Source of the DNA: a virus
DNA length: 64,000 bases
Virus record (IMG/VR): IMGVR_UViG_3300037493_002747
Location: 1-64,000 of that record
Reading direction: 5' to 3' (one strand)
Under the pieces are notes generated by a model. It was given only the letters and a program-made list of their open reading frames with translations, was not told where the DNA came from and did not search any database. Shown in pieces: positions 2,921 through 60,331 of the stretch (positions are counted from its first letter, which is position 1; each line of letters begins with the position of its first letter). The position numbers and the translations under genes were made by a program.

Positions 2921-2928
2921 GTGGACAC

Positions 2929-2982
2929 ATGAACAAGGTTCTAACTGCTTATGAAAATCCAACAAAATCAAAAATATATTGA
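2929..2982 (+). other. Short truncated reading frame before the DNA methylase
   Basis: An ATG followed by 16 sense codons (MNKVLTAYENPTKSKIY) ends in a TGA lying inside the -35 box of the methylase promoter. It reads like the first codons of a gene cut off where an AT-rich methylase cassette was inserted. It could equally be meaningless, since its length is within chance. Confidence 0.25.
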
Positions 2983-3007
2983 CAAAACCTAACCGATAGA
3001 TTATACT
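2979..3007 (+). promoter_or_regulatory. Sigma70 promoter of the DNA methylase
   Basis: TTGACA (2979-2984), a 17-bp spacer and TATACT (3002-3007) form a near-consensus host sigma70 promoter. It is unlike the phage-type elements elsewhere in this window and sits just upstream of an AT-rich gene, suggesting the methylase came with its own promoter and is expressed early by host polymerase. Confidence 0.8.
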
Positions 3008-3013
3008 GGAAAT

Positions 3014-36673: not shown

Positions 36674-39600
36674 ATGCCCTTTAGTACAGAAGAACTTGCC
36701 AAGAAGTTTGGCGATAGTGCCGAAGACGTTAAGAAGAGCCTTGAGGGAATGCTCGGGGCTGCTGACGACGTTGACAAGGTATTTGAAAAGATGACAGAGC
36801 GACAGGAAGCTGCCGCTCAGATTCAGGACAAGTTTGCGAAGGCTTTGGCTTCATCGTCAAAGTCTTTGACTGGCATTGGGCATTCTGGGATATCGGCGGC
36901 ACGGGGAATAAAGACCATTGATTCTGTATCTAGGTCTGCTGCATCATCTTTGGGTTCTCTGGGTATTGGAGCAGTCTCCGCTGTCGCCGGGTTCAAGGCA
37001 TTATCATCTGGTGCATCATCTTTCTCGTCAGATATTGAGAACACTGAGAAAAGCATTGCTGGTCTCGTTAAGGGTATAGGAGGTCTGGAAGCGAAACTCG
37101 GTGGCCTCAAGGCGGCATCTGTCTCGGTTGATGTTGTGATTGGAAGTCTTTCAGCATTGGATGACTTTGAGAAAAGAATCAAGGCGTTGCCTCAGAACGT
37201 GTCTGTAAATGTTTCTACTGGAGCTGCGGCTAAAACCGGGGCAGGAGCGGCATCGGCATCGGCAGGAGCGGCATCGGCGAAAGCAATGGCTAATGCGGCG
37301 GCTAAAGCAATGGCATCCAGAAAAACTCCTGCCTCAGCGGGAACATTGAGTGCGGCGATGTGGGGTGGACCTAATGCTGCCAAGAAAGCGGGGAGACTTT
37401 CCGGTGAATATGGAGGAAAGGCATTCGCAGAAAATTATGCTGAACAAGTAGCTAAGAACATTCGGAGTAAGTCGATCAAGTCAATGAAGGATAAGATGAC
37501 TTTGATGGCAGACGATACCGAGAAAATTAAGACTCCTGAAGGGAAGAAGAAGTATGTCGAATTGGCGGTAAAGATTGGCAAAAAGGGAGAAGTGTCGGAA
37601 ATTTTGGACGAGCTGAGTGACAATCAATCTAAGCTCTTCAAAAGGAATGTTGGCAAGATGGGCATGGAAAAGGCGATAGACAGTCTTATCGCCAAAACTC
37701 CAATTTTGGCTCTGCGTGTGAAGAAGGCGATGTCGGAAGCGGCGGAGGCTGCGGAAGAGGCAATTTCTCCATTTAAGAGACTTGAGGATCAAGTCAACAG
37801 TGAAGCAAAGACTTTCAAGGAGTTCATTTCACAAAATGTTGCTAAGGGTGGGGTGGAGTTCGGAGAGTTCGCAGGAGGATTGACGAAGAGTGCAACAGGG
37901 ATGTTTGCGGTTGGACTCGCTGCTGCATTTGTGGCAACGAAGATTTCTGAAATGGCTGAGAAATATGCGAATTACGCTTCTGAACTTGCCAAATATCGGG
38001 TAGAGACATCCGCATTGGAAGATACGATTGCCGGATTGGGTAAAAACGGGTTAGAGCCGTTACGTAAAGAACTTGGTCTTACTCGTGACCAAGCTGCTGA
38101 TTTCTACCAAGTTCTCAAGACTGGTGTGAATGAGCTTGGAATGAGTCCAGGGAAAATCATGGAGGTTTCCAAGGCACTGAGTGATACTTTTGGTGGAGAC
38201 CAAACAGCAAGGTTGAAGCAGTATGTTGATTTGCTCAAGGAGATTCCAACTATTGATGCGGACTTGAGCATTACGGCCAGCATGGATGATCAGGCAGCAT
38301 CGATTTACGCTTTGGCCAAAAGTGGTAAGATGGATGTGGTAATGGATTTACAGTCTGCTGGATTGTTTGGAGGGAAACAGGAAAGGAAAGAAGGAGCGGA
38401 CCTCGCTGATTCCAATCAAGCAGTTGCAAAAAACACAGAGGCCATTAAGGATTTCTTAACTGGATCATTATTTGGAACATGGACTCCGTATCTTGTTGCA
38501 TTGACGCAAGGTGTTTCTGCTCTTGTTGCAGCATTTGTGTCAGGATTAGCGATATGGGGAGGAATGAAAGCAGTACAGGGCGTATTCAAAACAGCTAGTA
38601 TTGCTACGATGTGGGCAACATGTAAAGCGATGGTTGCTGCAATACTTAGTTCTAAATCTGGCGGTAGGGGAAGAACTGGCAAGGGAGCTGTCAAGGGGGC
38701 TGTCAAGGGGGCATCGACGACAGCGGCCAAGGCAGCGGCCAAGGCAGTAGGGAGTAAGGCTGCGGCTACGGTGGCTACAACAGCTTCTAAAAAGGTTGCG
38801 ACGACAGCAGCTAAATCCGCCATATCACTTTCAAAATTTGGAGGTATCGCAGCTAAAATTGGTCCAAAATTGTTAGGAATTGGTCTTGCAGTAGTTGGAG
38901 TCGAGTTGGCTTGTGGTATGGCAGCAGACAAACTGGAAGAGACTGGTAAAACAGCAGCAGCGGCTGGAACTAGGATCGCTGGCAGTGCGGCAAGTATCGC
39001 AGGATTTGCACTTACCGGGGCTACTATTGGTGGGGCTATTGGGCTACTCGGAGGTCCCTTGGCGGCAGTTACTGCCACGGCTGGAGCAGTAGTTGGTGCA
39101 TTGGTTGGATTGGCAGTTGAGGCTAAAACTCTGTATAAGTCATTCAAGACTTTGGGTGTGTCGGCTTGGGAATATATTAAGAAATTCGGGTCGAGCAAGA
39201 AGTCTGAACCGACAACAGCATTGGGAAAGGCAGCAATTGAATTAAACGCGCAACTAATAGAAGAGCATGCGAAGATGGCTAAGTCTGGGATGGCCCTAGA
39301 ACAGTCTATGAACAGATTGAAGGCGGCTGTTAATAGTGCCAAGTTTGAATTCCTAGAGTTGAGTGCAAGACTTTCTAAGATTCAACTAAAAAACATTGGA
39401 GAAATTGGCGGTTCAATGGCGGGATTCACAAGTGCGATGCAGAAAGGTGAAGATGCCGCCAGGAAGATATTTAACGAGAAAAAGGCAGTAAATGAAGCAG
39501 AGCGTAAGAGAATCATGGGTAGTACGGATATGCAACCGGACCAGCGTCAATCTGCATATGATACTGTTCGAGAAGCAGAATTGAAGGCAGCCAATGATTT

Positions 39601-42600
39601 CGCAGAGGCATTGAGTGATCTTGCGACTACCTTGTATCAGACTCCTGAACTCATACAGAATGGATTGAAGCGTGAAATCGCAGGGACTACTCTTGGGCAA
39701 GCACAAGATACTGGAGCTTTCACAAGAGAATACAAGGATGTTGCTGAATCTAAAGATATTGGTTTGGCGAAAGAAGCCGTAACGAAGACTCAAGAAGCCA
39801 TGGTGAAATCATCAAAAATGGTTAGTGATTCTGTCAAAGCATATGAGGAAGCAAAGGTTGCGGCAGTTGCTAGTGGCAATGATTTGCTCAAAAAATATGA
39901 TGAAGAACTCCTTAATGATAAGATGGATGGGGCCAAGAGATTGGCCATGCAAGAGGAAAGGAACAGACTGAAGGCACTTCAGGATTCTAAGGCATTCGGT
40001 ACGGATGCTTCTAAAGAGTTGGTTGCAGCAAAAGGGAGACAGGGAAAGAAGAAAGCTGAAATTGAAATTCTGGAAGATAAACGAAAGGGAGAGTTTGAAA
40101 TAAAGCCGATGGCTGATGCAGCTAGTTCTAAGAAAGAACTTGATATCTATGGCAAGCAGAAGAAGAAGCTGGAAGAAAAACGTGATATAAAACAAAAAGA
40201 ACTTACAGATGTTGGTGGTAGCGATGAAAAATCGGAGGAGGCTCTTAAGGAAGTAGACAAGTTGAAAGGTGAGATAAAAGAGTTGAATGAGAAGATGACT
40301 CCTCTCATGAAAACAGTTTCCGAAGTTTCTTCTGATTTAAGTATAAAGATAAAAGCAATAAAGCCGGATTTGCCTACCGAGAAGATAACAGAAGCCGTAG
40401 AAGCGATTATGAACTCAGGCGGCGACATTGACAAAATGAGTAAGGCTCTAGAAGGATTCGGTCTTGCGGAGGTAGTAAAAGAAAGTATCAACAAGACAAA
40501 AGAGATTACTAAGGAGATAGGTGCTCTGAAAGACCAGAAGGGAGTTATTGACCAGGTTGTTGTACAGCATGAGTCGGTAGTCTCTAAAGAAGATGGGGTT
40601 ACAACGACACTGAAGGCGCAACTTGAGGCTGTTAAGAAGCATAGTGATGCTGTCAATGAATTAGTAAATTCTTACAAAAGATCTCTTGAGGGTGATTACA
40701 AAGAACTTCGCGTTAAGAGAGAGTCAGTTACTGCAACACAAGAGCAGGTAGCAATAGCCGGGCTTCATGGTTCTGCAACTGCGGAGTTGGCAAAACTTGG
40801 AGAGGAAGAAGGTAATTTAGCCAGAGAAGAATATGCTTATGCCAAGTCCAGTGTTAAACAGTTAGAAGGCATAATTGCAGAACATCAGAAAGCTGTTGAT
40901 TTAGCAAAACAAGTATCAGATGCGAACCCGAAAGATTTGTCTTTGAAGAAAGTATATGAGAGGGCATTAATCGAAATGGCAGGATATGAGACTCTGGCTT
41001 CTAATGCTAAAGATAGTTCGGAGAGAGCTATTCGCAAGTTGAAATTGGCAGGAGAGGGTGTGGATGAAGGATTGCAAGGATTTGCAAAGAGTATTACTGG
41101 AATCAATCTGACGAATATATCAGATTTGGCTAGTACACTGGCAGAGAGTGCTGAGTATACAGGAGATGTAGGAAAGGCTTCAGCGGAAAGTTTCAGGTTA
41201 GCTAAATATGCGTCTGATGAATGGTTGAAGAATGAGAAGGAGATTATCAAGGCGAGGATTGCTACTGCTAAAGCCAATATTGAAGCTGAAGCTGAAATTG
41301 TAAAACAGGATGCTCTGACCAAGAACAAGGATATGTCTCCGGAAGCAGCAGAGGCATTGAAGCAGCAGACGATAGCAGATATGAAGTCGGCGGTAGCGAA
41401 TAAGGAGAAACTTGCGTATGCCCAGGCGGAACTCAAACACAAGAAAGATGTTGTAGGAGCCGCAAAGAGGTCCAAGGAACTGAAGGAGGGTGAGCTTAAT
41501 ATTCAGCAGGGTTTGATTGATGACGCTATGTCGTTTGCGTCGGAGTTCGGCGGGTCTTTCGCATCAATCAATGCATTGCAGAATTTGAGTGTTGGTGTTG
41601 CCAGACAACAGTTGGATGTTGCCAAGGAATTCAGAGACAATATTCAGCAGGCATTCGAGGCTGCGGCAGGTGATGCTAATAAGCAGGCTGAGGTCGGCAA
41701 GGCATTGTTTCAGGCTCAAGCGGATGTGGCTACGCAGACTCTTAATCTTCGCAGGAAGGAGCTTGGCGTTCAGAAGAATATGATGGAGCAAATGCTTGGA
41801 GGTGTGTTTGGAGAGATGAGGAGCAATTTTGGAGCACGTCGTCAGATGGGTTCGGACGTGTCGATGATGGGCATAAATGCTACTCGTATGAAGTCAGCTT
41901 CTGGAATGTATGTCAATACTCCTGGTGGTAAGCCCGGAACAATCGAAGAACGGCGTAATAGACGGATGTTGGGTGGGGCTGGTGGGGCCGGTCCTTTGGA
42001 TGAATTGGCGAAGATGGGTGGGCCGATGGCTGAGGTTGCCAAGGCGATGAACAAGTCTCCTTCACGAGAACAGCAGGCGAAGTTGTTGGAGGAAGCAAAT
42101 GCTACTAGTAAGAACACGAAGGACGTGGCGAACTCAACTAGTCGAGGAGATCAGCCGGGATCATTTTACACGCATGATACGACAGCAGAGGGATTACTTG
42201 GAGGTATTCTCGGGGTATTGAGGGAGCTTACGGTAGGCATGTTGGATTCAGCGTTTACATCAAAATCAAAAGATGCAGGAGTAGTTGGAAAGAGATTGGA
42301 CGATGTTATTGCTGGGGCAGCTAAGACAGCGGCATCGGTAAAGGCGACTACGACACAAAAAGAGGATACGACTGCCGGTGTAGAGACAATTAAGAAGAAT
42401 TCTGAAAAGGTGGCTGGTCTGGAAGATGCTATAAGGATTCGGGAAAATGAGAATCCGATAGCAACAGGTGTTGAAGACCATAACAGGGTTCGGGCAGGCA
42501 GACCAATGACGGCAGATGGGGCCAATAAGGCATACATGGAGGCTTACCAGAAGTTTGGGGAAGGCTCTAAGGAAGTTGAAGCTGCAAGGAAGGACTATGA

Positions 42601-43219
42601 GATTGCTTCAAGCAATTCAGTGGAGGCGAATAAGGCATCAGTGGGTGAGAATAGGGCTAGCCCAGTTTCGGCTGCGAAAAAAGCCAGAAATATGTCTAAA
42701 ATGGTTGGGATTGGTGGTCGTTCAAGTTTGATGGGTACAATGCTTGGTGGGATGAGGACTGGAATAAAAGAGATGGGTGGTTTGGGGAACACCAAAGAGA
42801 TGAGTGGTTTGGGCAGCATGAAAGAGATGCGTGGTTTGAAGCCTCTTGGTGGTGTGACGAAGCAGGGTGGAAACACATCGGGTGGGGTTAAGACGGTTGG
42901 CGGTGCGACTGCAACTGGACTTGGCATGACTAAGGCGGGATATGCAGCGAATACCGCAGGTGGGGATACAATGGCTAGTAGGGCTGCGGGAACGGAAGTA
43001 GCACCACCGTCAGTTGGTATGACAGCAGCAAGGGCTCCTGGTGGTTCTACAGGAGGTGGCGGGATAGAGGCTGGGTCGAGTATCACTGTAAAAGGAGAGA
43101 TGATGGTCAAGTTTGACAACAAAATGTTCCAGCAGCAGATGACGGCTGTAGTATTGACCATCATGAACAATAGTCAGGCGCAGAAGCAGATTCAAAACGC
43201 CGTCTTGAAGAAGTCTTGA
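36674..43219 (+). CDS. Tail tape measure protein
   Basis: A 2181-residue protein, by far the longest here. The N-terminal third is alanine/serine-rich; hydrophobic segments lie near residues 410-430, 605-630, 728-745 and 770-815 (the last GATIGGAIGLLGGPLAAV); long charged coiled coils fill about 860-1700; the C-terminus is glycine/methionine-rich. This architecture is typical of tape measures, which set tail length and enter the cell envelope. At about 0.15 nm per helical residue it would correspond to a tail of roughly 300 nm. AGGAGGGG precedes the ATG. No peptidase domain is recognised. Confidence 0.88.
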   Translation: MPFSTEELAKKFGDSAEDVKKSLEGMLGAADDVDKVFEKMTERQEAAAQIQDKFAKALASSSKSLTGIGHSGISAARGIKTIDSVSRSAASSLGSLGIGAVSAVAGFKALSSGASSFSSDIENTEKSIAGLVKGIGGLEAKLGGLKAASVSVDVVIGSLSALDDFEKRIKALPQNVSVNVSTGAAAKTGAGAASASAGAASAKAMANAAAKAMASRKTPASAGTLSAAMWGGPNAAKKAGRLSGEYGGKAFAENYAEQVAKNIRSKSIKSMKDKMTLMADDTEKIKTPEGKKKYVELAVKIGKKGEVSEILDELSDNQSKLFKRNVGKMGMEKAIDSLIAKTPILALRVKKAMSEAAEAAEEAISPFKRLEDQVNSEAKTFKEFISQNVAKGGVEFGEFAGGLTKSATGMFAVGLAAAFVATKISEMAEKYANYASELAKYRVETSALEDTIAGLGKNGLEPLRKELGLTRDQAADFYQVLKTGVNELGMSPGKIMEVSKALSDTFGGDQTARLKQYVDLLKEIPTIDADLSITASMDDQAASIYALAKSGKMDVVMDLQSAGLFGGKQERKEGADLADSNQAVAKNTEAIKDFLTGSLFGTWTPYLVALTQGVSALVAAFVSGLAIWGGMKAVQGVFKTASIATMWATCKAMVAAILSSKSGGRGRTGKGAVKGAVKGASTTAAKAAAKAVGSKAAATVATTASKKVATTAAKSAISLSKFGGIAAKIGPKLLGIGLAVVGVELACGMAADKLEETGKTAAAAGTRIAGSAASIAGFALTGATIGGAIGLLGGPLAAVTATAGAVVGALVGLAVEAKTLYKSFKTLGVSAWEYIKKFGSSKKSEPTTALGKAAIELNAQLIEEHAKMAKSGMALEQSMNRLKAAVNSAKFEFLELSARLSKIQLKNIGEIGGSMAGFTSAMQKGEDAARKIFNEKKAVNEAERKRIMGSTDMQPDQRQSAYDTVREAELKAANDFAEALSDLATTLYQTPELIQNGLKREIAGTTLGQAQDTGAFTREYKDVAESKDIGLAKEAVTKTQEAMVKSSKMVSDSVKAYEEAKVAAVASGNDLLKKYDEELLNDKMDGAKRLAMQEERNRLKALQDSKAFGTDASKELVAAKGRQGKKKAEIEILEDKRKGEFEIKPMADAASSKKELDIYGKQKKKLEEKRDIKQKELTDVGGSDEKSEEALKEVDKLKGEIKELNEKMTPLMKTVSEVSSDLSIKIKAIKPDLPTEKITEAVEAIMNSGGDIDKMSKALEGFGLAEVVKESINKTKEITKEIGALKDQKGVIDQVVVQHESVVSKEDGVTTTLKAQLEAVKKHSDAVNELVNSYKRSLEGDYKELRVKRESVTATQEQVAIAGLHGSATAELAKLGEEEGNLAREEYAYAKSSVKQLEGIIAEHQKAVDLAKQVSDANPKDLSLKKVYERALIEMAGYETLASNAKDSSERAIRKLKLAGEGVDEGLQGFAKSITGINLTNISDLASTLAESAEYTGDVGKASAESFRLAKYASDEWLKNEKEIIKARIATAKANIEAEAEIVKQDALTKNKDMSPEAAEALKQQTIADMKSAVANKEKLAYAQAELKHKKDVVGAAKRSKELKEGELNIQQGLIDDAMSFASEFGGSFASINALQNLSVGVARQQLDVAKEFRDNIQQAFEAAAGDANKQAEVGKALFQAQADVATQTLNLRRKELGVQKNMMEQMLGGVFGEMRSNFGARRQMGSDVSMMGINATRMKSASGMYVNTPGGKPGTIEERRNRRMLGGAGGAGPLDELAKMGGPMAEVAKAMNKSPSREQQAKLLEEANATSKNTKDVANSTSRGDQPGSFYTHDTTAEGLLGGILGVLRELTVGMLDSAFTSKSKDAGVVGKRLDDVIAGAAKTAASVKATTTQKEDTTAGVETIKKNSEKVAGLEDAIRIRENENPIATGVEDHNRVRAGRPMTADGANKAYMEAYQKFGEGSKEVEAARKDYEIASSNSVEANKASVGENRASPVSAAKKARNMSKMVGIGGRSSLMGTMLGGMRTGIKEMGGLGNTKEMSGLGSMKEMRGLKPLGGVTKQGGNTSGGVKTVGGATATGLGMTKAGYAANTAGGDTMASRAAGTEVAPPSVGMTAARAPGGSTGGGGIEAGSSITVKGEMMVKFDNKMFQQQMTAVVLTIMNNSQAQKQIQNAVLKKS

Positions 43220-46841: not shown

Positions 46842-49800
46842 ATGTCGGATTGGACCAGTTACGAAAAAGAGCGATTCTATCATATCGCTCGACAAGCAGA
46901 AATCGTGGTCATCAAGGACCGTGATGTCATCGCGTTTATCCCCGAAGCCATAGGGCTTGCAGCTACACAGGGGATTGATCTTTATCGTAAAAGTGATGAG
47001 ACATATTCCATGTGGAAGTCTACTCCGCCTGTTGCAGTAGAAGCTTCCGAAAGATTGCTTTGTTGGACTAGAGTTTCAGGAACAGAGATGGTGTCGGGTT
47101 ATAGATGGGTTCCTTATATTACTTCCGACAACCCGGACACTACAAAGATATTGCCATTGCGGGAAGTGTTTTCCCCACGAGTAACCTATGACAGAACTAG
47201 CAATATGTTACATCTGTGGTTCTGGACGAATGTCAAATGGGATTACACGGGAACGGAATATTCCGAGGACAATATTTTCAAGATTGGGTACAAAGACTAC
47301 AAAAGCTTTTTTGACAATGCCGCTAACAAGATGACGTGTAAACGAGTCTTGTGTTATGCGGTAGGACAGTTTGGAAATTACTGGATAAAGGGCGGATTGA
47401 TTGATGGTTATCAAGGATTTTTGGGGCTACAAGGTGTCCAGAATGATCAGTATGACATTATTCCTGTTTTCACTCGACCGACGATCATTACAAATTTTTC
47501 GGTAACGAGTTTGGATGACGCTCCCGGACTTATTACTGATGGATGGTACGAGATTCAGGGTATCCAAAGTGGCTTTCAAGGATTCCAAGGCTTTCAGGGA
47601 TTTCAAGGCTTTCAGGGTTTTCAGGGCTTTCAAGGATTTCAGGGTTTTCAGGGATTTCAAGGATTTCAGGGATTTCAAGGATTTCAGGGATTTCAAGGAT
47701 TTCAGGGATTTCAAGGCTTTCAGGGCTTTCAAGGATTTCAGGGGTATCAGGGTTTTCAAGGATTCCAAGGCTTTCAGGGATTTCAAGGATTTCAGGGTTT
47801 TCAGGGATTTCAAGGCTTTCAGGGTTTTCAGGGATTTCAAGGCTTTCAGGGTTTTCAGGGATTTCAAGGCTTTCAGGGTTTTCAGGGTTTTCAGGGATTT
47901 CAAGGCTTTCAGGGTTTTCAGGGATTTCAAGGCTTTCAGGGTTTTCAGGGATTTCAAGGCTTTCAGGGTTTTCAGGGATTTCAAGGCTTTCAGGGTTTTC
48001 AGGGATTTCAAGGCTTTCAGGGTTTTCAGGGGTATCAGGGCTTTCAAGGATTTCAGGGGTATCAGGGATTTCAAGGCTTTCAGGGATTTCAAGGCTTTCA
48101 GGGTTTTCAGGGATTTCGAGGCTTTCAGGGTTTTCAGGGATTTCAAGGATTTCAAGGTTTTCAGGGCTTTCAAGGCTTTCAGGGTTTTCAGGGATTTCAA
48201 GGATTTCAAGGTTTTCAGGGCTTTCAAGGCTTTCAGGGTTTTCAGGGGTATCAGGGTTTTCAGGGGTATCAGGGCTTTCAAGGATTTCAGGGGTATCAGG
48301 GTTTTCAGGGGCTTCAAGGATTTCAGGGTTTTCAGGGGCTTCAAGGATTTCAGGGTTTTCAGGGGCTTCAGGGTTTTCAAGGGTTTCAGGGTTTTCAAGG
48401 AAATCAGGGATTTCAGGGGAATCAGGGTTTCCAAGGGAATCAAGGATTTCAGGGGAATCAGGGATTTCAGGGGAATCAAGGTTGGCAGGGCAATCAGGGA
48501 TTTCAGGGGAATCAAGGTTGTCCGGCGTGCATGACTGCCAGCGATATCTATCTACCAACATCAGGGTCGGGGTATGCATACCCCGACGTGAATAGTGATT
48601 GTTGGTCAGCAGGAGAGATAATTTGCATATCGGTTAGTGGGAAAGTAGATCAAGGCACCATCTCGTACATTAATGAGGGTTCTATTCGATTTACACTTGA
48701 TACTAATCCTTCGACGGGGGGGTACTATTCAAATGGAACCATATGTCATGGTGGTTGTGCTATCGGAATGCAGGGTTTTCAAGGAAATCAGGGATTTCAA
48801 GGCAATCAGGGATTTCAAGGGAATCAGGGATTTCAGGGGAATCAGGGATTTCAGGGAAATCAGGGAAATCAGGGAAATCAGGGCAATCAGGGCAATCAGG
48901 GAAATCAGGGAAATCAAGGGAATCAAGGGAATCAAGGGAATCAAGGGAATATGGGGTGGCAAGGTCCGCAAGGTTTTCAGGGATTTCAAGGGAATCAAGG
49001 ATTTCAAGGGAATCAAGGAAATCAGGGATGTTCGGCGTGTGTTAAGGGTGAGTTCAATGATCAGGGATCAGGCAATATCTTTATCAGGGTCTTTACACCT
49101 GATTCGGCAGATTGTTTCATTACTGGAGAAACGATTTGTATTTCTGATAATAGTAGTGGAGTAGTTTTATGTTCCGCAACAGTTACCAGCATTTATTTGG
49201 AGAACAACGGTTTCTACGGCAATAATACTAATCCTTCGACGGGGGGGTACTATTCAAATGTAACTGTATGTCATGGTGGTTGTGCTATCGGGAATCAGGG
49301 ATTTCAGGGGAATCAGGGATTTCAGGGGAATCAGGGGAATCAGGGATTTCAGGGCAATCAGGGATTTCAAGGGAATCAAGGGATACAAGGGAATCAAGGT
49401 ATTCAGGGATTTCAAGGATTTGCAGGATGTGCGGCATGTGAGCAGACGCACAGCTCTTCTCAGGGCATCAGCATACCAACATCGGGGACTGGTAGTGCCC
49501 AGTTGGATTATACTCACAAAGATTGTTGGACTGTAGGAGAAACAATATGCGTATCGGTTAATGGGGGGGTATCATATCAATGTTCCCTTACGAGTAAGAG
49601 TGAGATTGGCGGGTTTGATATCTATTTTACACCTAATACTTATCCTTCTGTCGCCATAAGCAATGCTGGTGGAATGGTATGTCATGGTGAATGTGTAACC
49701 CAAGGACTTCAGGGATTTCAGGGGAATCAAGGTTGGCAAGGGAATCAAGGATTTCAGGGGAATCAGGGCTGGCAAGGAAATCAAGGTTTCCAAGGAAATC

Positions 49801-50126
49801 AGGGATTTCAGGGGAATCAGGGTTTCCAAGGGAATCAAGGCTGGCAAGGGAATCAAGGATTTCAGGGGAATCAAGGCTGGCAAGGGATACAGGGGCTACA
49901 GGGATTTCAGGGCTGGCAAGGAATACAGGGTCCGCAAGGGATACAGGGGATACAGGGGCTACAGGGATTTCAGGGCTGGCACGGAATACAGGGAAATCAA
50001 GGGCCACAAGGGTACCAAGGCCCTGAGATGACATTTGCAACGATTGGAACACCTGTGTATATTCTTGGCAAGGATGCGGGCGGGAACATAGGATGGGTTG
50101 CAGTACAGACATTTACATGTCCATAG
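46842..50126 (+). CDS. Collagen-like tail fibre protein with Cys modules
   Basis: A 1094-residue protein. Residues 1-243 form a globular head. Then come four Gly-X-Gln arrays: the first (about 244-557) almost pure GFQ, later ones GNQ, GWQ and GIQ. Between arrays lie three related modules of about 85 residues, each opening with C-x-x-C, containing C-W/F-x-x-G-E-x-I-C and closing with CHGGC or CHGEC. The C-terminus is a short cap (GTPVYILGKDAGGNIGWVAVQ). Gly-X-Y periodicity suggests a trimeric, collagen-like stalk, but prolines are almost absent, so stability would rest on Phe/Gln packing. Probably a host-binding fibre. Confidence 0.75.
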   Translation: MSDWTSYEKERFYHIARQAEIVVIKDRDVIAFIPEAIGLAATQGIDLYRKSDETYSMWKSTPPVAVEASERLLCWTRVSGTEMVSGYRWVPYITSDNPDTTKILPLREVFSPRVTYDRTSNMLHLWFWTNVKWDYTGTEYSEDNIFKIGYKDYKSFFDNAANKMTCKRVLCYAVGQFGNYWIKGGLIDGYQGFLGLQGVQNDQYDIIPVFTRPTIITNFSVTSLDDAPGLITDGWYEIQGIQSGFQGFQGFQGFQGFQGFQGFQGFQGFQGFQGFQGFQGFQGFQGFQGFQGFQGFQGFQGYQGFQGFQGFQGFQGFQGFQGFQGFQGFQGFQGFQGFQGFQGFQGFQGFQGFQGFQGFQGFQGFQGFQGFQGFQGFQGFQGFQGFQGFQGFQGFQGYQGFQGFQGYQGFQGFQGFQGFQGFQGFRGFQGFQGFQGFQGFQGFQGFQGFQGFQGFQGFQGFQGFQGFQGYQGFQGYQGFQGFQGYQGFQGLQGFQGFQGLQGFQGFQGLQGFQGFQGFQGNQGFQGNQGFQGNQGFQGNQGFQGNQGWQGNQGFQGNQGCPACMTASDIYLPTSGSGYAYPDVNSDCWSAGEIICISVSGKVDQGTISYINEGSIRFTLDTNPSTGGYYSNGTICHGGCAIGMQGFQGNQGFQGNQGFQGNQGFQGNQGFQGNQGNQGNQGNQGNQGNQGNQGNQGNQGNQGNMGWQGPQGFQGFQGNQGFQGNQGNQGCSACVKGEFNDQGSGNIFIRVFTPDSADCFITGETICISDNSSGVVLCSATVTSIYLENNGFYGNNTNPSTGGYYSNVTVCHGGCAIGNQGFQGNQGFQGNQGNQGFQGNQGFQGNQGIQGNQGIQGFQGFAGCAACEQTHSSSQGISIPTSGTGSAQLDYTHKDCWTVGETICVSVNGGVSYQCSLTSKSEIGGFDIYFTPNTYPSVAISNAGGMVCHGECVTQGLQGFQGNQGWQGNQGFQGNQGWQGNQGFQGNQGFQGNQGFQGNQGWQGNQGFQGNQGWQGIQGLQGFQGWQGIQGPQGIQGIQGLQGFQGWHGIQGNQGPQGYQGPEMTFATIGTPVYILGKDAGGNIGWVAVQTFTCP
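47571..48515 (+). repeat. Nine-base GFQ codon repeat array
   Basis: About 105 tandem 9-bp units of GG(A/C/T)TT(T/C)CA(A/G), with occasional GYQ, GLQ or GNQ units. Because the unit has few stop-like triplets, all six frames stay open here for hundreds of codons; only the frame of the fibre gene is meaningful. Higher-order near-identical blocks indicate expansion by unequal recombination. Confidence 0.9.
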
Positions 50127-50830: not shown

Positions 50831-50885
50831 TTCCACAAGACCTGACGCATTGGTATATAATGAGGTGGTATTGCTGGAGGTCTAT

Positions 50886-53800
50886 GTGGCTTTTGTAAGT
50901 ATTGATTTGTCGAATTCTTTGGTTGTGCATGATGCCTACGAGCAAAGGACGGCTATTGCCGATCTTGGTGGGTATTGGGACGCCCAAAACAAGGCTTGGC
51001 GTATCGTATTCACGATTGCCAATTTGGAAGCACTCCTTGACGCTATTCCCGACATTTCAACATCGGAAGACTTGGCTGTAAAGGTCAAGGATCAGATGGA
51101 TAAGGAAGCCAAGCTGGAAAAACTTCGGGTGATGTCAAAGCAGGATACGCAGGTGTGTCTGCGTATTCCGGGTATGAAGCTTTCACTATACAACTACCAG
51201 CGGCTTGGCGTTATGTATGCGGCAACTAATCGTGTAGGACTATTGCTGGCGGATGAAATGGGACTAGGGAAAGGGACAACCATTGATAGCCAAGTATTTA
51301 CGACTTTTGGAAAGGTTAGAATCGGATCGTTGAAGGTGGGCGACGAGGTAGTAGGCAAGGATGGAAAACCTCATAACGTGATTGGAGTTTACCCCCAGGG
51401 AATGCGAGAAGTTTACCGTGTGTGGTTCAACGATGGGTTCTATCTTGACGTGGACAGTTCTCACTTATGGGAAGTAAGGTCTAACAACCAGCACAGCAAG
51501 GTGAGGAAAACGTCTGGGGTCGTCCTTTCGATGGAACAACTTCTGGACAAGGACGGTGTTGCGGAACGTGTCGGTGAAGGAAGGAATAGCGGTAAGACCT
51601 ACAAGTTCAAAACCTACTACAAGAAAACGAACGGGAACAACTCATGGGGAATACCGATGGTTGACCCCATCCAGTTCGTACACCGCACCATAGACATAGA
51701 CCCGTACCTCCTCGGAGTCTGGCTTGGCGATGGACATATTATGAAAACAGGGTATGTAAACCTAGTAATGCTAAAGGCAGACCTTGCTGATATGAATGTT
51801 GGAGGCAAGATTGGAAGAGTAGACGCATCACACATGGAAGCTCGTCTTTTCAATACACATAAACAGGAGTTGGTCAATCTTGGTTTGAACGGAAAGAGAG
51901 CTTGGGAGAAGTTTATACCTGATGACTATAAATACAATTCCGAAGAAGTTAGACTTGCGGTGATTCAAGGATTGATGGACACAGACGGACACGCATCGGA
52001 TTGTGCGACCGAGTATTCGACCAGTTCTAAGCAGTTGTGCGACGATGTGGTTGAGATTGTGCAGACGCTTGGTGGTATCGCAAGGGTCAGGTCCAGGATT
52101 CCACGTTACTGGTATAAGGGAGTAAAGAAGACGGGAAGGACGAGTTACAGTGTCAATATCAAGTTGCCTCCTAGTATTGTTCCGTTCCGTCTACCAAGAA
52201 AGGTTGTGGACTATGATAAGTGTGACAAGTATAGTCCCGAGCGATACATTTGTAATATAGAAAAACTCGCAGAAAAGAAAGAAACGGTTTGCATCTCAGT
52301 CGATGCTCCTGACAATCTTTATGTCACGGAACATTGTATCGTTACCCACAACACCCTCCAGGCCATTGGTACAGCAATGTTCTTAAAGGCTTCGGATGGG
52401 GCGAAGAAGGCACTTATTGTTACGCCAGCATCACTCAAGTTTAACTGGCCATTGGAGATCGAGAAGTTTACAGATGAGAAGTACGTGGTCATTGATGGTA
52501 CGCCGGATGAGAGAGTTGCGCAATGGCTTCGGGATGATGTGTTTTTCTATGTCGTCAATTTCGAGCTGTTACTGGAAGATTTGTTTGGAGGCAGGAAGTT
52601 CAGGGAGAAGAAGGGTGAGTCCGATGAGGACAGGCAGAGAAGGTTGGACAGGCATGAAAAGATTTCTACTAAAGCGAAACAGAGGCGGGGGATACTGACG
52701 ACAGTTAGGAATAGGGTATGGGATGTAATAGCGGTGGATGAATGTTTTCCGTATGGAACGATGATCGAAACGGATAAAGGACGGATGAGTATTGGAGATG
52801 TCGTATCTCAAAAATTGCCAGTGTCCGTTTTGTCTTGTGATTTTTCAAGGAATGTGTCATCGTATCGACGTGTTGTTAGATGGATGGAAAAATCTATGTC
52901 TGGACACCTCGTGGAGGTGACGCATGAAAGAGGAAGTTTTGTCTGTACTTGGAATCACAAAATCTGGACAGATGAATGGGGATATATCAAAGCGGGTGAA
53001 GCCACGAAGTATGGTGAAGCGCATTTGCGAGTTTTGCCATCACGAGTTCGATGCACCTCGCAAGGGGAAGTCAACACCGAGATTTTGTTCGGTGGTTTGT
53101 TCCGGAAGATTCAGACAGATGTGTCAGGACACCGTGGCGAAACAAGTGGCAGCAAGAACGATGCCAAAGATAGTGTTCAATTGTATGGAATGCGGTCGAG
53201 AGTTTGTGGTCAGGACGACAAAAGAGCAGGAGAGGAGATTTTGTTCGAGGAGGTGTGTGGCGATCTGGAGGTCAAAAACAGAGGATCGGAAAGACAGAAT
53301 GTTGAAGATGCAGGTGGCCTGCGGGTTAGTAACGAAGGGAAAGCCGAATCTGAGATTCTCCAAGTTTATGACAGAGAAGAATCAAGACCCGGTATTCCGA
53401 CAGAAGGTGATGGAGGGGGCAGCAAAGTGGAGGGAGACACATCCATCATTTCTTGTGAGGGGCGGGAAACCATTCATAACGAAGCCGCAGAGATTGTTGG
53501 CGGAAGCTCTTGGAGAAGAATGGGAGATGGAATACAAGGTCTCCGACAAGAGAATGGCAGATGTGTTGGTGAGTCCACCTCGGTTCTATCAGATAGACAT
53601 TGCAAATGTGGGAATGAAGATTGCTGTAGAGGTGGACGGAAGAACCCACAGGATGACGAAGTGGAAGATAATCGATGCTCGGAAGGAGAAGGCTTTGTCT
53701 TATCTCGGTTGGAAAGTATTAAGGTTCTGGAACGAAGAGATTTTGAAAGACTTGGACTTGGTAGTCCGGAAAATCTCCGAGTCTATAATCTCGAAGTAGA

Positions 53801-54842
53801 AGCTGATACGGACGACGATCATTGTTATGTTGCTGATGGTGTCCTAGTTTCTAATTGTCAAGCACTCAAGCATCATTCGTCCACCCGGACTCAGAATGTG
53901 CTGAACTTAAAGGCCAAGTGTCGTATGGCTTTAACAGGGACTCCGATGGATGGAAGGCTTGAGGAATTGCACAGTTTGATGCAGTTTGTGGCTCCCGGAC
54001 TTCTCATGTCCAAGACTCGGTTTTTTCAGAGGCATGTTGAGACGGACTTTTGGGGTAGGGTGACTGGGTACAAGAGAATGGGAGAGGTATCTCAGAAGAT
54101 TCAACAGTTCTTTCTTCGCAGGTTGAAGAGGGACGTTTTGAAGGACTTACCGGACAAGGTTTATGAGAATCGGCTAGTGTCCTTGACGGCTGAAGAACAC
54201 AAAATTTACAAGGCTCTGGCGGAGCAAGGGCATGAGGCGACAGAAGATGTTTTGGCAGTAGTTTCAGTTATTCGTTGTAAGCAGTTTTGTAATTATCCTC
54301 AGATGGTGGATGCGTCGTGTACGACAACGTCAAAGATGGATTCCTTCAGAGAGGTTCTGGATGAGGTTGTGGTCCAGAATGGTCATAAAGCATTGGTGTT
54401 CAGTCAATACAAAGAAATGCTGAATATCCTTGTCCCTGAATTGGAGAAGATGGGTATAAAGTACATGAGGATCGACGGAGACACTCCTCCAATAGAGCGG
54501 GCTTCGATGCAGAAGAAGTTCAATGAGGATAAAAGTCTTGATGTGATGATTGGAACTGAGGCTATGTCAACAGGGCTGAATTTCCAGTCAGCGGATTATG
54601 TTATCAACTATGATGACAATTGGTCTCCGGCTATTATGGCGCAACGTGAAGATAGGTGTCACAGGAATGGGCAGAGGAATGTGGTTACGGTAGTGAACTT
54701 CATTTGTAGAGACACGATTGAAGAACGTATCCGTGGAGTCATCTACGCGAAGAACAGGGTTACGGCACAAGTCCTTGGAGATGAGACTGATGATATGGTC
54801 TTGAGAAGACTTGGTCCAAAAGATGTTTGTCAGTTGTTGTGA
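50886..54842 (+). CDS. SNF2-family (SF2) DNA helicase containing two inteins
   Basis: The precursor has 1318 residues. Removing inteins at 51273-52352 and 52743-53855 leaves a helicase of about 587 residues. Joined motifs: DEMGLGK+TLQAIG (Walker A), VTPASLKFNW (Ia), AVDE+CQALKH (Walker B), ALTGTPMDG (III), KALVFSQYKEML (IV), GTEAMSTGLNFQSADYVINYD (V) and AQREDRCHRNGQ (VI). SNF2 ATPases of this size move along DNA in replication or recombination. The GTG at 50886 is chosen because GGAGG (50876-50880) lies 5 bases upstream; the open frame extends to 50850. Both inteins interrupt ATPase motifs, so the helicase is inactive until splicing. Confidence 0.9.
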   Translation: MAFVSIDLSNSLVVHDAYEQRTAIADLGGYWDAQNKAWRIVFTIANLEALLDAIPDISTSEDLAVKVKDQMDKEAKLEKLRVMSKQDTQVCLRIPGMKLSLYNYQRLGVMYAATNRVGLLLADEMGLGKGTTIDSQVFTTFGKVRIGSLKVGDEVVGKDGKPHNVIGVYPQGMREVYRVWFNDGFYLDVDSSHLWEVRSNNQHSKVRKTSGVVLSMEQLLDKDGVAERVGEGRNSGKTYKFKTYYKKTNGNNSWGIPMVDPIQFVHRTIDIDPYLLGVWLGDGHIMKTGYVNLVMLKADLADMNVGGKIGRVDASHMEARLFNTHKQELVNLGLNGKRAWEKFIPDDYKYNSEEVRLAVIQGLMDTDGHASDCATEYSTSSKQLCDDVVEIVQTLGGIARVRSRIPRYWYKGVKKTGRTSYSVNIKLPPSIVPFRLPRKVVDYDKCDKYSPERYICNIEKLAEKKETVCISVDAPDNLYVTEHCIVTHNTLQAIGTAMFLKASDGAKKALIVTPASLKFNWPLEIEKFTDEKYVVIDGTPDERVAQWLRDDVFFYVVNFELLLEDLFGGRKFREKKGESDEDRQRRLDRHEKISTKAKQRRGILTTVRNRVWDVIAVDECFPYGTMIETDKGRMSIGDVVSQKLPVSVLSCDFSRNVSSYRRVVRWMEKSMSGHLVEVTHERGSFVCTWNHKIWTDEWGYIKAGEATKYGEAHLRVLPSRVRCTSQGEVNTEILFGGLFRKIQTDVSGHRGETSGSKNDAKDSVQLYGMRSRVCGQDDKRAGEEILFEEVCGDLEVKNRGSERQNVEDAGGLRVSNEGKAESEILQVYDREESRPGIPTEGDGGGSKVEGDTSIISCEGRETIHNEAAEIVGGSSWRRMGDGIQGLRQENGRCVGESTSVLSDRHCKCGNEDCCRGGRKNPQDDEVEDNRCSEGEGFVLSRLESIKVLERRDFERLGLGSPENLRVYNLEVEADTDDDHCYVADGVLVSNCQALKHHSSTRTQNVLNLKAKCRMALTGTPMDGRLEELHSLMQFVAPGLLMSKTRFFQRHVETDFWGRVTGYKRMGEVSQKIQQFFLRRLKRDVLKDLPDKVYENRLVSLTAEEHKIYKALAEQGHEATEDVLAVVSVIRCKQFCNYPQMVDASCTTTSKMDSFREVLDEVVVQNGHKALVFSQYKEMLNILVPELEKMGIKYMRIDGDTPPIERASMQKKFNEDKSLDVMIGTEAMSTGLNFQSADYVINYDDNWSPAIMAQREDRCHRNGQRNVVTVVNFICRDTIEERIRGVIYAKNRVTAQVLGDETDDMVLRRLGPKDVCQLL
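51273..52352 (+). mobile_element. Intein 1 (class 3-like) in Walker A, with LAGLIDADG endonuclease
   Basis: A 360-residue intein between K and T of the Walker A lysine-threonine pair. Residue 1 is glycine, not Cys/Ser. The class 3 signature is present: Trp in block B (SSHLWEV), Cys in block F (VCISVDAPDNLYV) and Thr in block G (IVTHN, followed by extein T). Class 3 inteins use the block F cysteine instead of residue 1 to start splicing. Two LAGLIDADG motifs (LLGVWLGDGHI and IQGLMDTDGHA) give a homing endonuclease. Confidence 0.85.
52743..53855 (+). mobile_element. Intein 2 (class 1) in Walker B, overlapped by a separate gene
   Basis: A 371-residue intein between DE and CQALKH. It starts with Cys (CFPYGTMIETDKG), has block B (SFVCTWNHKIWTDEWGYIKAGE), block F (VYNLEVEADTDDDHCYV) and ends GVLVSN followed by extein Cys, all canonical. 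The middle (about residues 110-345) has no LAGLIDADG or HNH motif in this frame and looks compositionally odd; in the +1 frame the same DNA encodes a different endonuclease. The frame stays open over the entire overlap, as it must for splicing. Confidence 0.85.
52924..53799 (+). CDS. Vsr/DUF559-like endonuclease nested out of frame in intein 2
   Basis: A 291-residue protein in the +1 frame relative to the helicase, with its own ribosome binding site (GGAGGT at 52913-52918, ATG at 52924). Two zinc knuckles: CEFCHHEFDAPRKG...FCSVVC (about residues 35-60) and CMECGREF...FCSRRC (about 82-106). The C-terminal nuclease core has MADVLVSPPRFYQIDIAN, KIAVEVDGRTH and KALSYLGWKVLRFWNEEIL, the Vsr/DUF559 (EDxHD-like) fold known from phage homing endonucleases. 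Its reading frame is the one that looks like a conserved protein, while the intein frame tolerates it. It probably mobilises the intein. Confidence 0.85.
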   Translation: MKEEVLSVLGITKSGQMNGDISKRVKPRSMVKRICEFCHHEFDAPRKGKSTPRFCSVVCSGRFRQMCQDTVAKQVAARTMPKIVFNCMECGREFVVRTTKEQERRFCSRRCVAIWRSKTEDRKDRMLKMQVACGLVTKGKPNLRFSKFMTEKNQDPVFRQKVMEGAAKWRETHPSFLVRGGKPFITKPQRLLAEALGEEWEMEYKVSDKRMADVLVSPPRFYQIDIANVGMKIAVEVDGRTHRMTKWKIIDARKEKALSYLGWKVLRFWNEEILKDLDLVVRKISESIISK

Positions 54843-54849
54843 GGTATTT

Positions 54850-56550
54850 ATGTCGAGCTTCCATGACACAGTAGAACTTGAACGTGCCTTTCTTCGTGCG
54901 GTTACGAGTGGCATCATTATGGCCCGTACCTACATAAATCAAGGCAGGGAGGAGATGTTCACATCCGATCCTCGAAGATTCATATTTGCCATAGCGGTTA
55001 TGACTTTGAATGAGTCGAACTCTCTTTTATCTAAGCAGATATACGAATATGAGGTGAGTTCAAGACTGGGTGAAAATGATGCGGCAGACTTCATTGGCGA
55101 ATGGAACATGATTGATGGGGTGGCGTCATATGATTCACCAGAGGTACTTTTGGCGAAGATTCGTGATGCGGAGATTGGCCGTAGGGCATTGAGGTTGTCT
55201 GAAAATGTTGTCGATATGCTGACAAAGGGCAATATCAAGGATGCCGTTTCATTTCTAAAGCGTGAGGCGATGATGATTGGTGGTGGTCCAAAGGATGACC
55301 GCCCGGTAATACCATTGTCAGACATTTCCATTCGACTGAAATTGTATCAGGATAGGAAGGAAAACCCGGAGAAGTACCAAGGATTGAAGATTGGATTCAA
55401 GACATTCGATCAGTGGACTGGTGGTTTGTTTCCTGGTGAGTTGACCCTGATTGCTGGCGTTACTGGATTGGGCAAATCGACTCTTTGTCGTTCGATTGCC
55501 AAGGGGATTGTGACGCTCAATGGGGCGAAGAATGTTCTTCATGTCGCTAATGAGGAATATCTGGAACAGGTTCAGTATAAATATGATGCCTTGTTTATGG
55601 GGATTCCGTATACAGACTTCAAGTATGCTAGACTTACGGACGATGCCTTGGACCGATGGCAGAAGCAGATGCAGAAGGGAATGCAGGAATCCGGGATGGG
55701 GCAGATTTTCACGAAGGAGGTTCCGGCGTTTACGGATGTGTCTTTGGTGGAGCAGCAATATCGTATCTTGGAGAATCGTGGGATACCTATTCATGCTATC
55801 ATTATTGACCATCTTCCCCATGTGAAGCCGATTCAACAGTCGTGGGGAGAGAATGATGAGCGGTTTAAGGCGGCGGCAGATTGTAAGGAGTTGGCTCGTA
55901 GTCTTCGGGTGCCGGTAGTCACTCCTACTCAGGCGGCTACAGAGGTGGAGAAGAAACAGGCTAAGGGTCAGAGAGCCAGCAAGATGGATGTTTACGGGTC
56001 CAAGGGGCAAGTCCATGTAGCGAACACGTTTCTTATCATAACGTACAAGGGGACGGATGATACGCAACAGGATATACCCGACTATCTTCGGGATGTCTAC
56101 TGGTTGTGTGATGCTAAGAAGAATCGTGATGGACCTCCGTTCTATTTCATGGCGAAGCATCAGGTAAAGGATGGTCAGGTAACAGAGATCGCTGATCCGA
56201 GCAAGAAACCCAGCAAGGAGGCCAAGGATGGGGTAGAAAAGGCTCTGAATGAGGCGGAAGGTACTGGTAAGCCTCCAGTGGCGAAGACGGCTTCTGTGGT
56301 TGATCAGACGCCTGTGGTTCTCAATACTGGTCTTAGGGACGCTCAAATGGACTATGTTGAGGCTATTGATGGTGGAGGGGACAATGAAGATGTTCCCTCA
56401 GTTTCTGGACAAGAGGTCCAGGGTATTGATTCGGTCATATCGGAAGCGGAGCAGGATACTGTAAAGGAAAGGCCAGAATCTGCGAATTCCGCACCGAAAT
56501 CACTAATGGATAGAATTCGTGCCTCAAAGATTGCAATCCCCGGTGTATAA
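54850..56550 (+). CDS. DnaB-type replicative helicase
   Basis: A 566-residue protein. An N-terminal helical domain (about 1-140) is followed by the RecA-like core: LKIGFKTFDQWTGGLFPGELTLI, Walker A GVTGLGKST (203-211), Walker B AIIIDHLPHV (about 315) and an arginine-finger region near KGQRASKMDVYGSKG. The first 450 residues fit DnaB; the last 110 form an acidic, low-complexity tail with no known counterpart. The ATG at 54850 follows a GTGAGGT site; a frame from 54811 overlaps the helicase upstream. It would unwind the replication fork with the primase at 57951. Confidence 0.88.
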   Translation: MSSFHDTVELERAFLRAVTSGIIMARTYINQGREEMFTSDPRRFIFAIAVMTLNESNSLLSKQIYEYEVSSRLGENDAADFIGEWNMIDGVASYDSPEVLLAKIRDAEIGRRALRLSENVVDMLTKGNIKDAVSFLKREAMMIGGGPKDDRPVIPLSDISIRLKLYQDRKENPEKYQGLKIGFKTFDQWTGGLFPGELTLIAGVTGLGKSTLCRSIAKGIVTLNGAKNVLHVANEEYLEQVQYKYDALFMGIPYTDFKYARLTDDALDRWQKQMQKGMQESGMGQIFTKEVPAFTDVSLVEQQYRILENRGIPIHAIIIDHLPHVKPIQQSWGENDERFKAAADCKELARSLRVPVVTPTQAATEVEKKQAKGQRASKMDVYGSKGQVHVANTFLIITYKGTDDTQQDIPDYLRDVYWLCDAKKNRDGPPFYFMAKHQVKDGQVTEIADPSKKPSKEAKDGVEKALNEAEGTGKPPVAKTASVVDQTPVVLNTGLRDAQMDYVEAIDGGGDNEDVPSVSGQEVQGIDSVISEAEQDTVKERPESANSAPKSLMDRIRASKIAIPGV

Positions 56551-59044: not shown

Positions 59045-59078
59045 TTGACGATGTTCGTTGCGAATGATAGTGTACACT
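59045..59078 (+). promoter_or_regulatory. Sigma70-like promoter with palindromic operator candidate
   Basis: TTGACG (59045-59050), a 17-bp spacer and TAGTGT (59068-59073). The perfect 10-bp palindrome AGTGTACACT (59069-59078) covers the -10/start region. Downstream, GTCGA/TCGAC and a GGCC-flanked palindrome lie in the 60-bp leader before the sigma-like gene. Confidence 0.5.
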
Positions 59079-59134
59079 TTGTTTTAGGCCATATTGGCCA
59101 TATATGTCGATTTTCGACGAAAACAAGGAGGCGT

Positions 59135-60331
59135 ATGATTGGGCAAACTGGGCAAAATTTAGGCATTTCTGTTCGCGACAAGATTCAAGCAATCAAATCT
59201 TCTGGTAAAAGTTCAGAACCTTATTCCTCTGCATCTGCAATCCTAGCGATTCGAGCAATCAGGAATGACGTACTTAAAGGTTCAAAACCTTGTTCTGTCA
59301 TAGGTGTTACTGATCCACCTGTAGTCATTTCCGTTCGTGATAAGATTAAAGCAATCACTGCTGCTGGCAAAGGTTCAAAACCTTCTGATTTTCCTGTATG
59401 TGTTTCCATCATAGACGGTATTCGATCACTCACGAATACTGTGATCAAAGGGTCAAAACCTTGTGCTGTTGTACCTCCAACTGTCAATACGCATAAGGTT
59501 ACTGTAGCTCCTCCAACTCCTCCAACTGTCAATACGCATAAGGTTCCAGATAGTCAGAAGCTTGAACTTGTTAAGCAACTTGGCAAGTCGAATGCGGACA
59601 ATCTTGGGACTGTAATTGTTGCGACTCCATTGGCAGATGACGATAAGGATGTCGAACTAACGCGGGACCAGATGGCAGTAGCTGTGGCTCGTGATATGTC
59701 TGGAGTCAAACCTCTTTCAGAAAAGGATCGTATTCGGTACAACCGGATGTTGTATGATTCGATTCATGACTTGGTCTATCAGCGGGCGTCTCGATACCAT
59801 ACGACTTGTCCCGACGAGTCTGTTGATGACCTTTCGCAAGAGTGTATGTATCAACTTATGAGGAAACTACACGGATTCGATCCTAAGAGAGGTGCCTTCT
59901 CGACTTGGTCGTGGCATGTCTGCAAGGCAACGTTGAATAGGAAGTATCGAAAAGGCAAGCGAGATAGAAACGTCATTGTGAGTGGCCATTTTGTGAATGA
60001 AGATGGTGAAAGCACGCTGGAGAACAATCCTAAGCAACTTATTGAGGGTGTACAGACACACGAATGCCCTGGAGTTCTGGCATCAGAGATGATGACTGCT
60101 GTAAGGGAGTTAGTTGAAAAACACCCTAGGGAGAAGCATCTTCTCTTAGAGATATTCGGAAACCCAGATTCGGAAGATTTTGTTATGCCGAGCTATGTCT
60201 GTGTGGCAAAATCTGCAAAGGCTGTTGGGATGAAATACAGTCAGGCTCAGTTCTTTTTCAAAAAGGTAGTCCGACCGTTCATGTGGAGTAAGTTTATGGG
60301 GGGTGATAATGACAACGACATTGTGGACTAA
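59135..60331 (+). CDS. Sigma70-family RNA polymerase sigma factor with N-terminal repeats
   Basis: A 398-residue protein. Region 2 is clear: YDSIHDLVYQRASRYH, DESVDDLSQECMYQLMRK (2.1/2.2) and GAFSTWSWHVCKATLNRKYRK (2.3/2.4), about residues 205-275; a shorter region 4-like helical end follows (VCVAKSAKAVGMKYSQAQ). The first 117 residues form about four degenerate repeats with I-R-x-I...GSKP, for example ISVRDKIQAIKSSGK and ISVRDKIKAITAAGK, then a Pro/Thr linker with NTHKV twice. AAGGAGG precedes the ATG. It may direct host polymerase to one of the two phage promoter classes. Confidence 0.75.
   Translation: MIGQTGQNLGISVRDKIQAIKSSGKSSEPYSSASAILAIRAIRNDVLKGSKPCSVIGVTDPPVVISVRDKIKAITAAGKGSKPSDFPVCVSIIDGIRSLTNTVIKGSKPCAVVPPTVNTHKVTVAPPTPPTVNTHKVPDSQKLELVKQLGKSNADNLGTVIVATPLADDDKDVELTRDQMAVAVARDMSGVKPLSEKDRIRYNRMLYDSIHDLVYQRASRYHTTCPDESVDDLSQECMYQLMRKLHGFDPKRGAFSTWSWHVCKATLNRKYRKGKRDRNVIVSGHFVNEDGESTLENNPKQLIEGVQTHECPGVLASEMMTAVRELVEKHPREKHLLLEIFGNPDSEDFVMPSYVCVAKSAKAVGMKYSQAQFFFKKVVRPFMWSKFMGGDNDNDIVD

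Follow-up and report, generated by a model that had tools for sequence, protein, structure and literature searches.

A phage SNF2 helicase gene with two inteins, the second very probably carrying its homing endonuclease as a separate overlapping gene

The window analysed here, 64,000 nucleotides of a 75,760-base IMG/VR virus record (IMGVR_UViG_3300037493_002747, positions 1 to 64,000), contains on its forward strand a SNF2-family helicase gene (50886 to 54842; Pfam SNF2-rel_dom and Helicase_C) that is interrupted by two inteins, all parts of this gene and of its inserts being read in that direction. Judged from this sequence and its relatives, the homing endonuclease of intein 2 is very probably not part of the intein polypeptide but the product of a separate gene overlapping it in another frame. 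The best reading of the comparisons is that intein 2 belongs to a widespread intein family, seen in many other phages and also in bacteria, in which an EDxHD-type homing endonuclease gene overlaps the intein and is translated independently.

The nested open reading frame, absent from the first-pass annotation of this DNA, occupies the +1 frame from 52924 to 53799 and lies entirely within intein 2 (52743 to 53855), whose own frame is open across the full overlap. Its ATG at 52924 is preceded by a Shine-Dalgarno sequence, GGAGG (52913 to 52917, duplex -10.6 kcal/mol), and directly by a TGA (52918 to 52920) that ends the +1 frame. The predicted 291-residue protein matches DUF559 (PF04480, 1.6e-13), and its structural model, with a mean predicted local distance difference test score (pLDDT) of 84.6, contains helices, two clusters of Cys that resemble zinc fingers and, at the C-terminal end, a nuclease domain. 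This domain matches the folds of 3hrl (Z 13.2), I-Bth0305I (3r3p, Z 11.5) and Vsr (1cw0, Z 10.6), and 3hrl is also matched by profile at E 1.8e-10; Foldseek E-values reach only 0.012 to 0.016 at probability 1.00, so the fold match rests on the Z-scores, this probability and the sequence. Every one of 68 aligned relatives keeps residues D225, E236, D238, H242 and D251 of the catalytic motif (D225 to D251, 53596 to 53676), which is assigned to the EDxHD family by comparison with the 3r3p and 3hrl folds. Fold and motif thus mark the gene product as an EDxHD/Vsr-type enzyme, predicted to be a zinc-finger homing endonuclease. The Foldseek search with this model also matched mitoribosomal proteins.

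Relatives were taken from collection searches (the best 80 loci each, of 234, 146, at least 339 and at least 376 relatives) and from seven phage genomes, identical DNAs being removed before counting. As a single query against viral_contigs the nested protein returned no close relatives; an alignment query did find relatives. A tblastn search of 50,697 phage records gave 40 matches, each below 60% identity, and the feature annotated under the match was the host gene or bore an unspecific name. In all seven fetched phages, of Vibrio, Corynebacterium and Pseudomonas, the match is in frame +1 relative to the annotated helicase; phi673, a Corynebacterium glutamicum phage among the carriers, is an actinobacteriophage, and none of the phage searches returned a mycobacteriophage. 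In all, the endonuclease was found at 324 loci, 250 of them with distinct DNA. We counted a locus as nested where a half of the Hint (splicing) domain stands in the host frame and that frame has no stop, which holds in phase +1 for 176 of the 250 and in phase +2 for none. One locus (L146) has an in-frame fusion, two (L216 and L325) have a Hint half in the +1 phase but with stops, and 71 have no Hint half, the intein-equivalent frame containing stops in 70 of these (the exception, L124, spans 95 amino acids). The demand for an open frame, itself part of this definition, excluded only two loci out of 178 whose Hint half is in the +1 phase, and one of these, L325, has nine stops and a weak match to the C-terminal Hint half only, and reads as free-standing.

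The openness of the intein frame is far from what the endonuclease codons alone would give. In 156 nested representatives, the window included (70% clustering; 32,356 codons), there are no intein-frame stops against 1416 expected from synonymous shuffling; 51 control representatives with no Hint half have 482 against 514 expected. These controls are mostly short DUF559 matches (median 74 amino acids in an earlier set), but six in the set of 250 DNAs are at least 180 amino acids long and have 6 to 28 stops. For the window by itself the figures are 0 and 13.3, and none of 1000 shuffles was as low. In phase +1 a stop in the intein frame requires an endonuclease codon ending in T ahead of AA, AG or GA, and each T-ending codon has a C-ending synonym, so that such stops can be removed without changing the endonuclease. 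In an earlier subset, T-ending codons stand before AA, AG or GA in 0 of 3390 cases and in 3020 of 8471 elsewhere, which restates the absence of stops. Recoding to a stop-free intein frame is possible for 86 of 86 proteins in phase +1 but for no more than 6 of these 86 in phase +2, where a mean of 2.7 stops is unavoidable. The constant phase is accounted for in this way, +1 being the sense phase in which synonymous changes suffice to remove any stop, and a single origin is not required to explain it. Such an origin is also possible, and Hint and endonuclease distances do correlate (Mantel r 0.56 for 47 inteins; maximum 0.18 in 2000 permutations).

Selection within the overlap appears to act chiefly on the endonuclease. 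Counted by its codon positions, substitutions number 3/0/32 between L002 and L003, 4/3/20 between L005 and L006, and 8560/7488/13365 over 130 pairs of at least 50% identity; in 125 of these pairs, which are not independent of one another, identity is higher for the endonuclease than for the shadow frame, and the intein-frame linker evolves faster than the endonuclease frame. Given this excess of third-position substitutions, the pairwise identities and the invariant catalytic residues, comparison indicates that the endonuclease is the constrained protein here and the linker the freer one, barring stops.

The host frame itself is continuous, open from 50850 to 54842 and not split in two open reading frames, with GTG 50886 as the probable start. 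By translation and by comparison with a relative, L169, the N-extein (50886 to 51272) ends in the Walker A residues GLGK and the middle extein (52353 to 52742) in the Walker B residues DE; the C-extein (53856 to 54842), placed by translation and Pfam, begins with Cys+1 (CQALKHH) and holds the helicase C-terminal domain. Intein 1 is seated between GLGK and T, and intein 2 between DE and CQ. The joined exteins are 63% identical over 583 residues to L169, the one relative found when the C-extein was used to seek them, and because the L169 gene is intact at both points both inserts are taken to be real insertions. The Walker B residue is Ala in this empty allele and Cys+1 in the interrupted one. 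A second related phage, L008, has both inteins at identical sites; its Walker A intein bears the class 3 triplet described below, and its Walker B intein starts with Cys1. The first-pass annotation had placed two inteins in Walker A and Walker B of one ATPase, at GLGK/T and DE/CQ; the open frame, the junctions and the empty L169 allele confirm this, both inserts break catalytic ATPase motifs, and the span it gave, 51273 to 53855, has the first position of intein 1 and the last of intein 2 as its exact limits. From the sequence it is a sound inference that the helicase would be inactive before both inteins splice. The end of the SNF2 gene is overlapped by an open reading frame for a DnaB_C-type helicase (54811 to 56550), in which a Pfam scan found no intein domain.

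Intein 1 (51273 to 52352, 360 amino acids) had been assigned to class 3 with a LAGLIDADG endonuclease, and alignment with characterised class 3 inteins had been proposed as the check. Its top PDB matches are the class 3 DnaB1 intein of Mycobacterium chimaera (6rix/6riy), with which the diagnostic residues line up: the block B H-x-W, block F Cys and block G THN fall on the Trp-Cys-Thr (WCT) triplet that defines the class (Trp B:12, Cys F:4, Thr G:5; PMC5222942, PMC7891396). Residue 1 is Gly, with no Cys, Ser or Thr nucleophile, and a LAGLIDADG_3 domain (PF14528) lies in the intein's own frame, as LAGLIDADG domains are present in 82.5% of 1701 class 3 inteins (PMC7891396). The assignment is therefore borne out by Gly1, the triplet and Pfam, and by its sequence intein 1 is a conventional member of class 3 that carries its endonuclease in frame.

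Intein 2 (371 amino acids) carries the class 1 residues C1, TWNH (the block B TxxH), N371 and C+1, and passes the NCBIfam models intein_Nterm (TIGR01445; 24.8 bits, cut-off 24.5) and intein_Cterm (TIGR01443; 20.8, cut-off 15.6), so that the earlier class 1 assignment with Cys1 is likewise upheld; no Pfam domain, an endonuclease domain included, is found in its frame. AlphaFold2 predicts two confident Hint halves, residues 1 to 100 (52743 to 53042; pLDDT block means 88 to 97) and 321 to 371 (53703 to 53855; 87 to 96), the latter closing with SN before the C of the extein. The linker between them, residues 101 to 320 (53043 to 53702; block means 33 to 65), is mostly disordered by prediction and falls within the overlap with the endonuclease gene. 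Foldseek matches the model to 36 PDB entries at E<=0.001, inteins foremost (best 1zd7, E 2.4e-6, a Hint fold), and Cys1, the block B His and the terminal Asn are kept in 47 of 47 aligned inteins of the family. No intron family appears among the Rfam matches at E<=1 between 50000 and 56000, an absence that is not proof.

A different significance for the pair of inteins has to be weighed, namely that the helicase is held inactive until two mechanistically different inteins splice, possibly as a regulatory switch. Both inserts do break catalytic motifs, and one of a similar pair in DnaB of Mycobacterium smegmatis has reported conditional splicing (PMC6195587), but the relative L169 keeps its helicase without either intein, and as both inteins of the window carry homing endonucleases selfish spread is enough to explain both; we regard a switch as unlikely.

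Some observations weigh against the view of a splicing intein with an independently translated endonuclease gene, and they are best taken with the alternatives that they favour. The penultimate residue of intein 2 is Ser (SN, not HN), which, together with the failure of Pfam to recognise it, might mean that this intein no longer splices and that the helicase is either dead or functional with its insert. SN also ends 18 of 177 relatives, however, and a penultimate His, although common, does not define class 1, active inteins that lack it being on record (PMC7664689). Cys1, the block B His and the terminal Asn are kept throughout the aligned family, and the gene retains both its helicase motifs and an open frame, all of which makes loss of splicing quite improbable.

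Translation of the nested gene raises a second group of doubts. Strong Shine-Dalgarno sequences (-8 kcal/mol or better) occur at 23 of 72 loci, against a null mean of 7.8 and a maximum of 16 in 2000 draws (one of the 73 loci has no candidate start), and because they are enriched at or before the starts, independent initiation is the best reading of the sequences. Yet 49 of the 72 loci have no very strong Shine-Dalgarno and several no convincing start, and in the window GGAGG is able to pair in a CACCUC/GAGGUG hairpin (52880 to 52960). That hairpin, which could couple translation of the nested gene to that of the intein, is no stronger than in shuffled sequence (z -0.28). In several Vibrio phage inteins the Shine-Dalgarno, GAGGT, is the very DNA that encodes the Hint motif DEV. 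Were there no initiation of its own, the endonuclease could be made by programmed +1 ribosomal frameshifting as a fusion to the N-terminal Hint half; many relatives do have an open +1 frame upstream, by a median of 90 nucleotides before the conserved part, and the Shine-Dalgarnos are weak in part of the set. In the window, though, the TGA closes the +1 frame before the ATG and GGAGG stands at the start, and strong Shine-Dalgarnos are enriched in the set, so that we hold frameshifting to be decidedly improbable as a general explanation, though it may apply at some loci.

Out-of-frame reading frames do arise by chance, and since the intein frame shows recognisable Hint halves the 291-codon frame could be accidental or a fossil within a mini-intein with a degenerate linker. 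A DUF559 domain, a confident fold, catalytic residues that do not vary among 68 relatives and a better-conserved frame in 125 of 130 pairs speak against this; that the +1 frame is kept even by relatives of 24 to 57% identity refutes it, leaving it a very small probability. One relative, L146 (an archaeal contig, 358 to 714), does have the endonuclease fused in frame to a C-terminal Hint half in a radical SAM-like protein; overlap is therefore not obligatory, and by its sequence L146 is the conventional counterpart of the nested-endonuclease inteins. Displacement of such an in-frame endonuclease by sequencing or assembly errors is nevertheless most improbable, as two compensating frameshifts of equal net phase would have to have occurred at 176 distinct loci, which come from numerous assemblies as well as from named phage genomes, and silent stop avoidance would not result. 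Also adverse is L216, a DnaX-like gene (2241 to 4385) with a single TAG at 3201 in the intein frame, within the overlap; its halves are otherwise intact and its endonuclease itself terminates in TAG, and the codon may be a true stop by which the gene was recently divided, or else an error or a recoded codon. The idea that relatives are often split mostly failed, L216 being the one candidate.

The inteins of the family favour one kind of target. Cys comes first at 174 of 174 N-junctions and DE precedes it at 155, and at 177 C-junctions the +1 residue is Cys in 166 and Ser in 10. By sequence the hosts are superfamily 2 (SF2) helicases and, to go by their motifs, presumably DnaX-type clamp loaders. 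At two loci, L099 (2971 to 5036) and L301 (2992 to 5260), a free-standing endonuclease gene of the family lies directly upstream of an SF2 helicase gene whose beginning it overlaps and whose DES/DEA-H site is empty of any intein, a layout as expected if the endonuclease recognises the adjoining helicase gene.

Taken with an independently translated endonuclease, these data suggest the following course. Ribosomes in the helicase frame would make a precursor in which the mostly disordered linker joins the two Hint halves, which would fold and then splice. Others, initiating at the internal Shine-Dalgarno and ATG (52913 to 52926), would make the 291-residue zinc-finger EDxHD endonuclease, whose coding is shown by comparison and whose translation we infer. 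Helicase alleles with no intein would be cleaved by it at the Walker B codons, and repair would copy in the whole insert; the intein frame would stay open by silent avoidance, T giving way to C in endonuclease codons. More tentatively, and as a possibility that we would not call probable, the observations could be joined in one account: a large family of inteins, mostly at the DE/C of Walker B in helicases, clamp loaders (judged by sequence) and other ATPases, with an independent EDxHD gene always in phase +1, would have originated when endonucleases that stood free next to empty helicase genes moved into mini-inteins. One synonymous change in an endonuclease codon could then create a stop dividing the host gene, the step at which L216 may stand, and the overlapping state would therefore be a direct route from contiguous inteins to split inteins and fractured genes.

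In this arrangement the splicing and endonuclease functions of intein 2 would share DNA but not protein, the two products could be made in differing amounts, and changes in the endonuclease would affect the splicing frame chiefly in its linker, which is unconstrained. The arrangement suggests a way, open to test, in which contiguous inteins could become split ones; it is also a source of minimal splicing domains whose linkers are disordered, and a striking case of long overlapping genes in which phase and codon choice are simply explained. Annotation of phage records overlooks the nested gene.

Elsewhere in the window, a 1094-residue open reading frame (46842 to 50126) has a very long run of collagen-like triplets of QGF type with short globular repeats between and is probably a tail fibre or similar protein, and one of 2181 residues (36674 to 43219) has no Pfam match at E 0.01. 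A 428-residue protein with a sigma-70 region 2 domain (59045 to 60331) adjoins genes for Toprim, DEAD helicase and uracil-DNA glycosylase proteins.

Compared with known systems, intein 2 shares with conventional LAGLIDADG inteins, such as intein 1 and that of SPbeta bnrdE, the union of Hint domain and homing endonuclease, but in those the endonuclease is in frame and stops abound in the two remaining forward frames, whereas here it has a separate frame. The SPbeta bnrdE intein, a possible precedent for an out-of-frame endonuclease, is in fact an ordinary in-frame LAGLIDADG intein. Fractured genes, reportedly described by Dassa in 2009, are said to be split inteins with a separate endonuclease gene, of the EDxHD family. 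They would resemble the window in that a separate gene for an EDxHD-type endonuclease accompanies the intein, but with the host gene split in two where the window has one uninterrupted frame and an overlapping endonuclease gene. I-Bth0305I is associated with an intron and is not known to be intein-borne. It shares its catalytic motif and the fold of its catalytic domain with the nested endonuclease (PMC3943268), and the standard scheme, as set out in the same source, has homing endonucleases free-standing in introns and fused in inteins as one polypeptide.

For the pairing of two intein classes, in which the first-pass annotation had seen the interest of this gene, M. smegmatis DnaB is a published precedent, with class 3 DnaBi1 in the P-loop and class 1 DnaBi2 (PMC6195587). 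There too one helicase holds two inteins of different class, one of them in the P-loop, but the helicase family is another, DnaBi1 has no endonuclease, and the available excerpts of that report do not mention an overlapping endonuclease gene. Intein 1 is also like the class 3 intein in Snf2 of Deinococcus radiodurans (Brace 2010, cited in PMC7664689) in being a class 3 intein in an Snf2 helicase. In the literature searched we found one paper on an out-of-frame endonuclease (PMC11855218). It cites Gorbalenya 1998 on overlapping frames and a 2025 preprint on actinobacteriophage inteins (10.1101/2025.01.02.630785, 'non-canonical architecture') that may overlap with our findings, and we do not claim that the arrangement is unpublished. 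The paper describes the ShiLan domain, an insertion in mycobacteriophage methylases that does not splice and holds an HNH endonuclease out of frame, with no Shine-Dalgarno detected. The likeness lies in a phage insertion that is open in the host frame and has a homing-type endonuclease in another, but the ShiLan insertion has no splicing domains, an HNH enzyme and few phage carriers, whereas intein 2 of the window has its Hint halves and a Vsr-like EDxHD enzyme.
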